Position numbers and translations under genes: made by a program
The notes under the pieces: generated by a model
Databases searched by the model: none
What the model was told of the DNA's origin: nothing
The model's input: only the letters and a program-made list of their open reading frames with translations
Assembly (NCBI GenBank): GCA_022826585.1
Contig: JAJDUR010000048.1
Span: forward strand, 1 to 64,000
Length of the DNA stretch: 64,000 nt
Source of the DNA: Dehalococcoidia bacterium
GTDB taxonomy: Bacteria; Chloroflexota; Dehalococcoidia; Tepidiformales; Tepidiformaceae
Direction of reading: 5' to 3'
Shown here: one piece after another, positions 26,284 to 32,946 of the stretch
Position numbering within the stretch: position 1 is the stretch's first letter
Layout: every line of letters starts with the position of its first letter

Positions 26284-27630
26284 ATGCACGTGCGCTCGCC
26301 ACGCTGGACCTGGATCGTCGCCCTGGTTGCGGCAGTTGTTCTGGTCGGAGTTGTCGCCGCCTGCGGAGGCGGCGATGGGGAGGACCGGCCCGGCTCGGTC
26401 GAGGTCATCAACGACGGAACCGGCACCGGCTCGGCCTCGGGCTCCGTCTCCGGCTCGGTGTCGGGTTCAGTGTCCGGAACGGGCACCGGTTCGGCTTCCG
26501 GTACCGCGACAGGCTCGGGTTCGGGCACTGGCACAGGAACTGGAACCGGCACTGGCACGGGAACTGGCACCGGCACAGGGACTGGCACCGGCACCGGCAC
26601 AGGCACCGGAACTGCCACGGGTACCGGCACCGGAACCGGCACCTCGACCGGCACGGCCACCGGCGCAGGTGGCGACGTCTCCGCCGCGATGGGCGACTAC
26701 CAGCCCGTCTCCAACGTGGACTCCCATGCCGCGCTCGTGCTCGACGTGTGCGAGATCAACGGCCTGCTGCCCAAGGACGCGCCCCTGGACTACGACGCCA
26801 TTGAGCAGCTCTACGTCGAGGGCAAGAACTCGGTGAAGGGCGACGGCTCCATTCGCACGCTTGCCGGCTTCGCCCGCACCGAGCGCGACGAGCGCATCTG
26901 GAACGACTACGTCGCCTACTACGACGACCCCACCTGGCTCGACACCTTCGTCATGAGCGCCATTGAAGGGACCGGCGCCTTCGCGGGCGAGTCCGACCTC
27001 GTGCGGCGCCAGGGCATCCAGAAGGGCATCCAGAACCAGATCATGGTCGCCTACGCCATCCACGAGCTGGTTGTCGCCCTCGGCAAGGCCGCCCAGGGCA
27101 ACTTCGACCCGGCCTCCGGGGCTCCTCACAACTGGGACGAAGGGTGGGCTTTCTACCACGGCGCGGAGCCCGGCTGCGGTCCCTACGCGACCGCCGACAA
27201 GCGCGGCGCCAACTTCGGAACGGGCACGGCCGTGAACGACGCGCTCGCCGCCGCCTTCACCGAGGGCGTCGACGCGCTGGTGGCCGGCAGTGCGGCCGGC
27301 GGCGGAATCGCCACCGCCAAAATCATGCAGCAGCTCGCCGTCACCTACGTGCAGGCGACCATCCGCTACGCCCACGTCATGGACGGCGACCTGGAGGCGG
27401 GTGACACCGACGCCGCCCGCGTGCACCAGGCCGAAGGCTGGGCCTTCTTCCGCGTCATCGAGCCGCTCGTCGCCGGCGTCGATGCGGATGCCGCGGCGAC
27501 TATCGCTTCGTACTACGACCTCTCCCTCGGCCCACCAAGGGCCGGCGCTGGGGAGGCTATCCAGGCAGCTCTCGAGTCCGTCTACGCCGGGCTCGGCATC
27601 ACCGCCGCGCAGGTCGGCGAGCTGCAGTAG
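26284..27630 (+). CDS. FEA1-like (low-iron-inducible periplasmic protein family) lipoprotein with a long Gly-Thr tether
   Basis: Lipobox [13 protein letters not shown]; low-complexity G/T/S/A linker; domain [12 protein letters not shown]...[86 protein letters not shown]...[50 protein letters not shown], which I recognise as FEA1-type. Confidence 0.75.
26417..26673 (+). repeat. Low-complexity hexanucleotide-like (GGNACN)n tract encoding the poly(Gly-Thr) linker
   Basis: Encodes [44 protein letters not shown]...; near-continuous GGC/GGA-ACC/ACT/ACG alternation. Confidence 0.95.
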
Positions 27631-27635
27631 CACAA

Positions 27636-27671
27636 GGAGCGCCGGCGGCAGCCCTCGGTCGCCGGCGCTCC
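27636..27671. terminator. Perfect 12-bp hairpin between the FEA1-like gene and the UDP-sugar dehydrogenase gene
   Basis: GGAGCGCCGGCG-GCAGCCCTCGGT-CGCCGGCGCTCC; no U-tract, so terminator, attenuator or RNA-stability element. Confidence 0.5.
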
Positions 27672-27690
27672 CCCAGTCTGGAGGACCCCT

Positions 27691-30568: not shown

Positions 30569-30624
30569 CAAGACGATCACGAGGGCTCGTACTGACTTAC
30601 CGGAAGAAAGAGGAGGCATTTTTC

Positions 30625-31632
30625 ATGGCAACACGATTTCTGGTCAGGGGCGCCGCGGCGCTGCTGGCAGTCGCTGCGCTTGCGGCCCTCGTAGTAGCGT
30701 GCGGCGACGACGACGGAGAGGTCCGGCCCATCGCCGTGAGCGAGTCGGAGTCCGGATCCGGAACGGGCAGCGCGTCCGCATCCGCATCCGCGAGCGGCTC
30801 CGCCACCGGCATCTCCACCGAGGGGCTCGAGACGAGCACCTCGAACGACCTCATCCAGTCCGCGGTCGACGGCTACCGCGGCTACCTGATGGCCCAGGTC
30901 GACCAGATGATCGCCGACACCGACGTGTTCACCAACGCCATCCGCGCGGGTGACCTCGAGGCCGCCCAGGCTGCCTACGCGCCTTCGCGTCTGGCCTGGG
31001 AGCGCATCGAGCCCATCGCCGGACTCGTCGAGGAGATCGACGGCGCCGTCGATGCCCGCGTCGACGACTTCGAGAACGAGGACGACCCCGGGTTCACCGG
31101 CTGGCACCGTCTCGAGTACATCCTCTTCTCGCTGAACACCACCGACGGTGCGGCTGAGTTCGCGGACAAGCTCGACGCGGACCTCCGCATCCTCCGCGAT
31201 GCCATCCCCGACCTCGAGCTGCCGCCCGCCGTCCTCGCGATCGGCGCGGCCGAGCTCATCGAGGAGGTCTCGCAGGGCAAGATCACGGGCGAGGAGGACC
31301 GCTACTCGAAGACCGACCTCTGGGACTTCTACGCCAACCTCGAAGGTTCGAAGGCCCTCATCAGGCTCCTCACGCCTGCCCTTGAAGAGGCCGATCCCAC
31401 CCTGCTGTCGTCGATCAACGCAGGGTTCGATGAGCTCGACGAGACCCTCGCCCCGCTTCGCAATGGCAACGGCTGGGTGCCGTACTGCCAGGAGAACGAC
31501 GAGTACCCCTCGGACGAGTACTGCCCCGACGGCGTGACCGTCTCGCAGGCCACGGTCGACCAGCTCAAGGCGCAGCTCGCGAGTCTGTCGGAGAACATCT
31601 CCCAGACCGCCGGGGCGCTCTCGCTCCAATAA
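30625..31632 (+). CDS. efeO: EfeO-type imelysin-family iron lipoprotein
   Basis: Lipobox ALAALVVACGDDD; GFTGWHRLEYILF (GxHxxE motif); TGEEDRYSKTDLWDFYANLEGSKALIRLL. Confidence 0.88.
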   Translation: MATRFLVRGAAALLAVAALAALVVACGDDDGEVRPIAVSESESGSGTGSASASASASGSATGISTEGLETSTSNDLIQSAVDGYRGYLMAQVDQMIADTDVFTNAIRAGDLEAAQAAYAPSRLAWERIEPIAGLVEEIDGAVDARVDDFENEDDPGFTGWHRLEYILFSLNTTDGAAEFADKLDADLRILRDAIPDLELPPAVLAIGAAELIEEVSQGKITGEEDRYSKTDLWDFYANLEGSKALIRLLTPALEEADPTLLSSINAGFDELDETLAPLRNGNGWVPYCQENDEYPSDEYCPDGVTVSQATVDQLKAQLASLSENISQTAGALSLQ

Positions 31633-31641
31633 GGGATCGCG

Positions 31642-32946
31642 ATGGCCGATCAGCGTGAAGAAGGCGGACGAGGGAGGCAACGCCCCCGCCTCTCCCGTCG
31701 CGCCTTCCTCAAGGCTGGAGCCGTCGTAGGCGGTGCAGCGGCGCTCTCGGGCGGCTCAGTGCTGCTCACTGCCTGCGGCGATGCTGACGACGACTCCGCC
31801 GTCGTCATCGCCCCGGACGACGTCGAGCCTCGCTTCGTCGATTTCTACGGGCCACACCAGACCGGCATCACCGCCCGGCCGGTTCCCACGCTCGGGCTGA
31901 TGGCGTCCTTCAAGGTGCTATCCCCGGATCGCGAGTCGCTACGCGACACCTTCGTCGAGCTGACCGACGAGATCCAGGGACTCATGGCGGGCAGGCCGCC
32001 CACCATCCGCGACGAGGCCTACCCCCCGACCGACTCGGGACTGCTGGGTGCCGAGCCTGAACCCGACGACCTCAGTGTCGTGGTCAGTGTCGGCTCCTCG
32101 CTCTTCGACGACCGCTACGGCCTCGCCGGCCAGCAGCCGCTCGAGCTCGTCCGCATGCCGTTCCTCGCGAACGACCGGCTCGACCCCGCCCGCACCCACG
32201 GCGATCTGCTCCTCAACATCGATGCGCGCCACCCCTACCCCCTCCAGTTCGCCCTGCGCCCGATCATGCGTCGCCGGCGACGCGACCTGGTCCTGCACTG
32301 GATCATCGACGGCTACACCCGGGGCGGCGGTGTGAACGACGGGACCGCGGGCGCGCCCCGGAACCTCCTGGGCTTCAAGGACGGCACGGCGAACCTCGAT
32401 TCCAGCGACGATGCGGCCACGAAACGCCACGTCTGGGTGCAGCCGGGAGACGACCAGCCCCAGTGGTCGGTCGGAGGCTCCTATCAGGCGGTGCGCGTCA
32501 TCCGCATGTTCGTCGAGTTCTGGGACCGCACGCCCCTCGCGGAGCAGGAGGCGATCATGGGGCGGCACAAGCTCTCGGGCGCGCCCCTCGGCATGGAGCG
32601 TGAGTCCGACGTCCCCGACTTCTCGGACGACCCCGACGGCGAAGTGATGCCGCTCGACGCCCACATCCGGCTGGCGAATCCACGCACAGCCGCGACCGAC
32701 GAGAACCTGATCTTCCGCCGGGGCTTCTCTTACACCCGTGGCTACGACCGCGCTGGCCGCCTCGACATGGGGCTTGCCTTCGTTTCCTACCAGCGCAGCT
32801 TCGTGAAGGGATTCCTGGCCGTGCAGGAGCGCCTCGCCGGCGAACCGCTGGAGGAGTACATCCTGCCCGAGGGCGGCGGCTTCTTCTTCGCCCTCCCCGG
32901 TGTCCCGGAGCCCGGGCGCTACCTCGGCGATGGCCTGTTCACGTAG
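31642..32946 (+). CDS. efeB: EfeB-type Tat-exported Dyp-family heme peroxidase
   Basis: SRRAFLKAGAVVGGAAALSGGSVLLTAC; LLGFKDGTANLDSSD (GxxDG); FRRGFSYTRGYD..LDMGLAFVSYQRSFVKGFLAVQERL. Confidence 0.93.
   Translation: MADQREEGGRGRQRPRLSRRAFLKAGAVVGGAAALSGGSVLLTACGDADDDSAVVIAPDDVEPRFVDFYGPHQTGITARPVPTLGLMASFKVLSPDRESLRDTFVELTDEIQGLMAGRPPTIRDEAYPPTDSGLLGAEPEPDDLSVVVSVGSSLFDDRYGLAGQQPLELVRMPFLANDRLDPARTHGDLLLNIDARHPYPLQFALRPIMRRRRRDLVLHWIIDGYTRGGGVNDGTAGAPRNLLGFKDGTANLDSSDDAATKRHVWVQPGDDQPQWSVGGSYQAVRVIRMFVEFWDRTPLAEQEAIMGRHKLSGAPLGMERESDVPDFSDDPDGEVMPLDAHIRLANPRTAATDENLIFRRGFSYTRGYDRAGRLDMGLAFVSYQRSFVKGFLAVQERLAGEPLEEYILPEGGGFFFALPGVPEPGRYLGDGLFT

Follow-up and report, generated by a model that had tools for sequence, protein, structure and literature searches.

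An FEA1-related lipoprotein gene near efeO and efeB in a Dehalococcoidia genome without detectable FTR1: a putative ferric-iron acquisition locus

The window analysed here, the first 64,000 nucleotides of contig JAJDUR010000048.1 of a marine, probably sponge-associated Dehalococcoidia bacterium, encodes an FEA1-related lipoprotein (hereafter FEA) followed by the genes of EfeO and EfeB, in a genome in which we detected no FTR1-type permease EfeU. We consider it rather probable that these genes belong to an EfeU-less ferric-iron acquisition locus, in which FEA captures iron, EfeO and EfeB act beside it, and an Fbp-type ATP-binding cassette (ABC) pump takes the place of FTR1. The computed observations behind this proposal are the family membership of FEA, the absence of FTR1, the conserved gene neighbourhoods, the FbpA and FbpBC homologues of the same genome, and a promoter box common to the genes concerned. 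The central features are as follows.

26284..27630, + strand: FEA1-related lipoprotein of 448 residues, with a signal peptide, the lipobox VAAC, an S/T/G-repeat linker and an Fea1 domain
26365..26661, + strand: GT/SG-repeat linker of FEA, 99 residues, 43% Ser+Thr and 37% Gly, with a 12/24-bp tandem repeat in the DNA
26662..27627, + strand: Fea1 domain, with an all-helical AlphaFold model
30625..31632, + strand: EfeO, an M75-only (EfeM-type) lipoprotein with an S/G-rich linker (PF09375, E 2e-32; EfeO of PDB 7wgu, E 1.4e-63)
31642..32946, + strand: EfeB, a DyP peroxidase/deferrochelatase exported by the twin-arginine translocation (Tat) pathway, with the motifs GFKDG, SRRAFLK and HIRLANPR

Profile comparison places FEA as a plain member of both Pfam PF07692 (Fea1; residues 125-448, E 3.6e-31, 108.9 bits against a cut-off of 25) and the NCBIfam family NF038033, "FEA1-related lipoprotein" (447 bits against a cut-off of 250). 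A preliminary description of this DNA had recognized the FEA1-like C-terminal domain by eye, and the three motifs it quoted lie at 27127, 27010 and 27415; it had also named imelysin as a second family to compare, to which (PF09375) FEA has no match. FEA is the single Fea1 match in the 2.74-Mb genome. The N-terminus carries a hydrophobic stretch and the lipobox at residues 24-27, assigned by pattern rather than by a signal-peptide predictor. Since the family is already catalogued, the protein itself is not new. The family model describes the same lipoprotein architecture and is silent on partners, to which the window adds the EfeOB neighbourhood and neighbours that may glycosylate the tether. 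A search of a literature collection under that family name found no paper on these lipoproteins.

The Fea1 domain is common to FEA and to its algal relatives, namely Chlamydomonas FEA1, Ot-Fea1 and the phytotransferrin ISIP2a, which function in iron uptake (PMC4855317, PMC7676907). Compared to these, the window protein is a bacterial lipoprotein with an S/T/G tether and a single domain, in which we found no motif of the R/K-E/D-x-x-E (REXXE) type. This motif was reported in Ot-Fea1 and ISIP2a, is absent from Chlamydomonas FEA1, and is thus not general in the family (PMC4855317). By comparison with its relatives, FEA may likewise bind iron. Because endocytosis is impossible in a bacterial host, iron held by FEA would have to be delivered to a membrane pump.

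The AlphaFold model of the Fea1 domain is confident (pLDDT 95.6, pTM 0.92) and all-helical. A fold search against the PDB and viral models gave no relative at E <= 0.001, and no relative of solved structure was found by sequence either. In an alignment of 40 Fea1 sequences, the invariant polar residues (domain numbering) include H22, D28, Y51, R115, K121, H134, E135, H156, D159, E160, Y165, R181, Y229, Y236 and E258. Two further relationships were considered and rejected: kinship with imelysin/M75 proteins, for which a profile-profile comparison against the window EfeO was not significant (probability 0.6%) and the PF09375 match is lacking, and an internal duplication around two EGWAF motifs, which is too weak to be claimed (hhalign E 0.0016, probability 16%).

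EfeO and EfeB lie about 3 kb downstream of FEA, as the preliminary description had put it, and are closely paired, with 9 bp between them. EfeO scores 113 bits against PF09375 and has both the GWHRLE (GxHxxE) and the GEEDRY motifs. Its match to NF041757 (266.6 bits) covers only model positions 113-358, so that the protein lacks the cupredoxin part and is of the EfeM type; the missing N-terminal part also explains why the score stays below the cut-off of 270. A Ser/Gly-rich linker lies near 30720-30840. The site-IV motif of this EfeO reads ERIEPIAGLVEEID, with Gly in place of the Glu found in EfeO of PDB 7wgu (ERIEPIAELFSDLD); Gly also occupies this position in L065, an FEA locus of Acidimicrobiales. 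EfeB reaches 398 bits against TIGR01412, below the cut-off of 428, and its nearest solved relatives are deferrochelatases (E 6e-114). The window thus has in common with the EfeUOB/FepABC systems a single operon of an M75 EfeO and an EfeB peroxidase, Tat export and the conserved motifs, whereas its genome has no EfeU and its EfeO no cupredoxin domain. Imelysin-EfeB operons lacking EfeU have been described before, in outer-membrane contexts (PMC3143127).

The absence of EfeU, claimed earlier for the locus, extends to the genome and beyond. A profile search with PF03239 gave no match at E <= 1 in this genome, which is 93.7% complete, and none in 50 other FEA-carrying genomes (0/50), with positive-control genomes detected in both cases. 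Mere under-detection of FTR1 can be ruled out, as the positive controls and 13/14 Chloroflexota genomes gave matches. Among 400 sampled Chloroflexota genomes, the others with a substantial EfeO match, some of them weak or partial (G073 and G228), have FTR1 in 9/9 cases, and it is present in all three sampled genomes of the window's own family that lack FEA. Of the Chloroflexota examined that bear EfeO, only those with FEA have EfeOB without FTR1. In Acidimicrobiia, FTR1 occurs in 83/296 genomes and FEA in 7, with an overlap of 0, which is not significant in a 2x2 test alone (p 0.20); setting the actinobacterial FEA genomes with FTR1 (0/30) against the 83/296 Acidimicrobiia gives p 9e-5, a value uncorrected for kinship among related, non-independent genomes. 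Beyond the family cut-off, FEA does not strictly exclude FTR1: G121, a Chloroflexota genome with a distant FEA, has an FTR1-like match.

The neighbourhood of FEA is conserved in related genomes. Two sister loci, L020 and L021, share the gene order FbpA-bfr-(hemH)-flippase/glycosyltransferase-FEA-UDP-glucose/GDP-mannose-dehydrogenase-like gene (UGDH)-glycosyltransferase-EfeO-EfeB, and the locus L022 has FbpA-hemH-flippase-FEA-UGDH-glycosyltransferase without EfeOB. As this order recurs on independent contigs of the two sisters (287 and 924 kb), an assembly chimera can be ruled out. In the Acidimicrobiales locus L065, EfeB-EfeO, FbpB-FbpA and FEA lie within one 11-kb stretch, again without EfeU. 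FbpA/FbpB genes were found inside the fetched flanks of 24/52 non-archaeal FEA loci, the FbpA homologues from FEA loci all carry the tandem-Tyr motif NHYY, and FbpA-like genes are present in 13/13 FEA genomes tested. The partner that generally accompanies FEA is thus a ferric ABC importer, and EfeOB is an extra confined to certain lineages, an M75 protein (EfeO) being present in only 5/51 FEA genomes. The co-occurrence of FEA and EfeOB that had been proposed for survey thus recurs in the two sisters and is not a general feature.

An Fbp-type importer is encoded elsewhere in the window's own genome. A substrate-binding protein (SBP) at C115:30079-31116 is 86% identical to the FbpA of L022, matches the ferric-binding proteins of the PDB (E 2e-63) and has the NHYY motif; homologues of FbpC and FbpB are adjacent on contig C64. 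The genome therefore has the parts of an FbpABC/FutABC system, i.e., an FbpA-like SBP with tandem Tyr, an FbpB-like double permease and an ATPase, and FbpA stands in the FEA locus of its relatives. The parts are scattered in the own genome, and classical Fbp systems come without FEA and EfeOB.

A rare promoter box, TTAGGN5CTW, connects these genes. The pattern was derived from the efeO, fbpA and flippase promoters, and the corresponding elements of the window are listed below.

30541..30553, + strand: rare box TTAGGCTCCACTT, ~70 bp ahead of the efeO start codon, also conserved in the sisters L020 and L021
35016..35028, - strand: second TTAGGN5CTW box TTAGGTAGGACTA, upstream of bfd-bfr
23017..23035, no strand assigned: imperfect 19-bp palindrome ACTAATTTAGAAAGTTAGT of putative function, between TTGACA and TAGACT elements, upstream of flippase-FEA

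The window holds 2 sites of the pattern against 0.18 expected. L020 and L021 have three boxes each, before fbpA, the flippase-FEA operon and efeO, and L022 has two, before fbpA and flippase-FEA. Three of the 9 sites in the own genome precede iron genes (efeO, bfd-bfr and fbpA), and one precedes an inositol-phosphate-synthase-like gene. We take the pattern to resemble DtxR/IdeR operators; such a regulator is a candidate only.

The remaining genes of the locus and its surroundings are the following.

23066..26251, + strand: flippase-GT2 fusion of an LPG-synthase-TM flippase, a phosphodiesterase/sulfatase-like part and a GT2 glycosyltransferase, of a family kept beside FEA in Acidimicrobiia
27691..28503, + strand: UGDH-like gene directly after FEA (PF00984, E 6e-25)
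28910..30406, - strand: membrane glycosyltransferase-like protein (fam 3) with an N-terminal D-E motif (weak NF047440 match, E 1.8e-7)
33000..34043, - strand: ferrochelatase HemH (PF00762, E 4e-94)
34258..34734 (34258-34794 in the open reading frame listing), - strand: bacterioferritin (TIGR00754, 162 bits, cut-off 125.6)
34731..35003, - strand: bacterioferritin-associated ferredoxin Bfd (PF04324, 32.2 bits, cut-off 26)
38795..42777, + strand: FecBCD-type ABC transporter with an SBP, two permeases and an ATPase (PF01497, 67 bits), a less likely partner of FEA

The flippase fusion, an unusual protein of 1061 residues, stops 32 bp 5' of FEA, and the two are probably co-transcribed. The glycosyltransferase-like protein at 28910..30406 has no Pfam match; its homologues (fam 3) adjoin FEA in Acidimicrobiia and, together with fam 4, are the closest conserved bacterial neighbours of FEA (25 loci each). 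The flippase/GT2 and glycosyltransferase-like families adjoin FEA in bacterial loci only. In our survey, in which the lipobox or the start was unreadable in a few sequences, bacterial FEA linkers have 35-118 residues and mostly 30-54% Ser+Thr, and archaeal ones have 5-13 acidic residues. FEA and the window EfeO both stand on very long Ser/Thr/Gly repeat tethers, 69-118 residues long among relatives. It is possible, as a guess, that the neighbouring flippase/GT2 and glycosyltransferase-like enzymes O-glycosylate these tethers. In L021 and L022, hemH is found on the upstream side of FEA. Farther away on the - strand, 35104-38954 holds two adjoining genes of fused membrane-ATPase ABC exporters, probably a heterodimer, and 43608-53048 a 3146-residue open reading frame resembling a multi-domain type I polyketide synthase.

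We propose that the FEA lipoprotein, on its long flexible Ser/Thr/Gly tether, would bind Fe(III) at the cell surface, and that the EfeO lipoprotein and the EfeB peroxidase would act in the same extracytoplasmic space. These two might supply or handle iron, with EfeB oxidizing Fe(II) or freeing iron from heme. Fe(III) would then pass from FEA to the FbpA-type ferric-binding protein and on to the FbpBC-type ABC pump, which would replace the FTR1 permease. Iron control through a DtxR/IdeR-like box may tie together fbpA, the FEA operon, efeOB and bfd-bfr.

Several observations weigh against this proposal. FEA does not share an operon with efeOB: the 3.0 kb between the FEA stop (27630) and the efeO ATG (30625) contain the UGDH-like gene and the opposite-strand glycosyltransferase-like gene, and the two are thus neighbours in separate transcription units. 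The suggestion of the preliminary description that FEA works with EfeO and EfeB accordingly holds in part, favoured by the conserved proximity in two sisters and the common rare box, and tempered by the separate units and the lineage-specific pairing. The FbpA on C115 and the FbpBC on C64 lie on contigs other than that of the window and do not form one operon. The C64 permease and FbpC-type ATPase are nearest, below cut-off, to NCBIfam models of 2-aminoethylphosphonate transporters, so that iron is only a putative substrate of this pump; the C115 SBP is also nearest to such models, weakly and below cut-off. None of the sought importers was found in 11/34 long non-archaeal FEA loci, and 46/51 FEA genomes have no M75 protein. 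The box was partly picked from the promoters it links, which leaves the bfd-bfr site as its only independent success, and the flippase-FEA promoter of the window has the palindrome instead of the exact box that its sisters carry there.

That iron would be passed to an importer unlinked to FEA was foreseen in outline by the preliminary description, which had pointed to the FecBCD-type system at 38.8-42.8 kb. This system is complete, lies 6-10 kb away and has an SBP whose best-fitting models are those for Fe(III)-dicitrate, and 10 FEA loci, of which 5 are archaeal, have FecCD-type permeases in the vicinity. Nevertheless, we find it quite improbable that it takes in the iron captured by FEA and EfeOB: importers of this type normally carry chelates or corrinoids, the window SBP scores well below the cut-offs, no such system was seen in the 21-kb sister loci, and no TTAGGN5CTW box lies nearby. 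The FbpABC-type importer is preferred because FbpA occurs in every FEA genome tested, stands in the sister FEA loci and has the same box, which the window FecBCD lacks. A rather unlikely alternative is that EfeOB forms a heme-iron extraction module of deferrochelatase and EfeO that acts separately and lies near FEA by chance. The deferrochelatase relatives of EfeB, the adjoining ferrochelatase gene, the lack of EfeOB in 46/51 FEA genomes and the published release of heme iron by FepAB/EfeOB pairs (PMC3577903) all fit such a module. Against chance, the proximity is kept in three genomes and in L065, the box is common to both, and in the Chloroflexota compared above EfeOB dispenses with FTR1 only where FEA is present.

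An EfeU that is present yet missed in a draft of 127 contigs and 93.7% completeness is barely credible, as a search that detected its positive controls likewise found no FTR1 in the two sisters that share the locus or in 48 further FEA genomes. It is also very improbable that FEA serves another metal or the surrounding envelope glycan machinery rather than iron. The glycosylation genes are indeed its closest bacterial neighbours, the protein lacks the REXXE motif of Ot-Fea1, and iron binding is argued from relatives; yet the neighbours of FEA in two domains of life include ferric SBPs, bfr, hemH and transferrin-family SBPs, and its algal relatives act in iron uptake. The Fbp-type pump fed by FEA, with EfeO and EfeB alongside, remains the reading we favour.

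A scan for relatives across genomes gave 103 FEA loci, of which 80 were kept. They include three close Chloroflexi/Dehalococcoidia ones (83-94% identity), a sponge-derived Acidimicrobiia metagenome-assembled genome (70%), many marine Acidimicrobiia, and Marine Group II (Poseidoniales) archaea. We found no FEA on plasmids or viral contigs. In the FEA tree, the Chloroflexi sequences and two Actinomycetota sequences form one fully supported group of eight, which makes a transfer between these phyla likely. The FEA of contig L069, labelled Dehalococcoidia UBA2979, groups inside Marine Group II archaea, and this contig is probably mis-binned.

Each of the 28 archaeal FEA loci contains an importer gene of the PhnDE or FecCD type, encoding an SBP or a permease; a PhnDE-type SBP occurs in 25 of them and a PhnDE-type permease in 23, and the Marine Group II FEA genes adjoin PhnCDE-like transporters. 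The archaeal SBPs near FEA match the transferrin family PF00405 above cut-off in 9/9 tested. Their best PDB match is lactoferrin (E 2.5e-24), and a fold search put melanotransferrin on top (E 2.8e-27), with a model of pLDDT 78.7 whose global TM is low, the lobes being placed differently. The protein of L071:11434-13530 and its homologues in L070-L098 are bilobal and single-lobe ABC SBPs of the vertebrate transferrin family. These Marine Group II proteins reach E 2.5e-26 against PF00405, have the CHTG anion motif and are encoded next to PhnC/PhnE-type genes; a search of the same literature collection for the phrase 'archaeal transferrin' found no paper.

A wider reading, which we hold to be tentative and somewhat doubtful as a whole, would make FEA1-related lipoproteins the prokaryotic counterpart of phytotransferrin: a modular protein gathering Fe(III) at the cell surface in both bacteria and archaea. 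It might dock with an Fbp ABC importer, with an archaeal transferrin-family ABC importer or, in the window's lineage, with EfeOB and Fbp; it would replace FTR1-based uptake wherever present, and its bacterial tether would be O-glycosylated by dedicated neighbouring enzymes.

The EfeU-less arrangement of FEA, EfeOB and Fbp, with its common box and the absence of FTR1, would represent a new form of ferric-iron uptake, of putative function. In algae, how iron is handed from Fea1 proteins or phytotransferrin to a transporter is unsettled. If the prokaryotic Fea1 proteins are invariably accompanied by ferric ABC pumps and in no case by FTR1, this hand-off can be studied in bacteria, and the origin of the algal Fea1 proteins becomes testable. 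A crystal structure of the Fea1 domain would be informative, given a confident model that has no counterpart among solved structures. If the proposal is true, the EfeO/EfeB pair also gains a role without EfeU.

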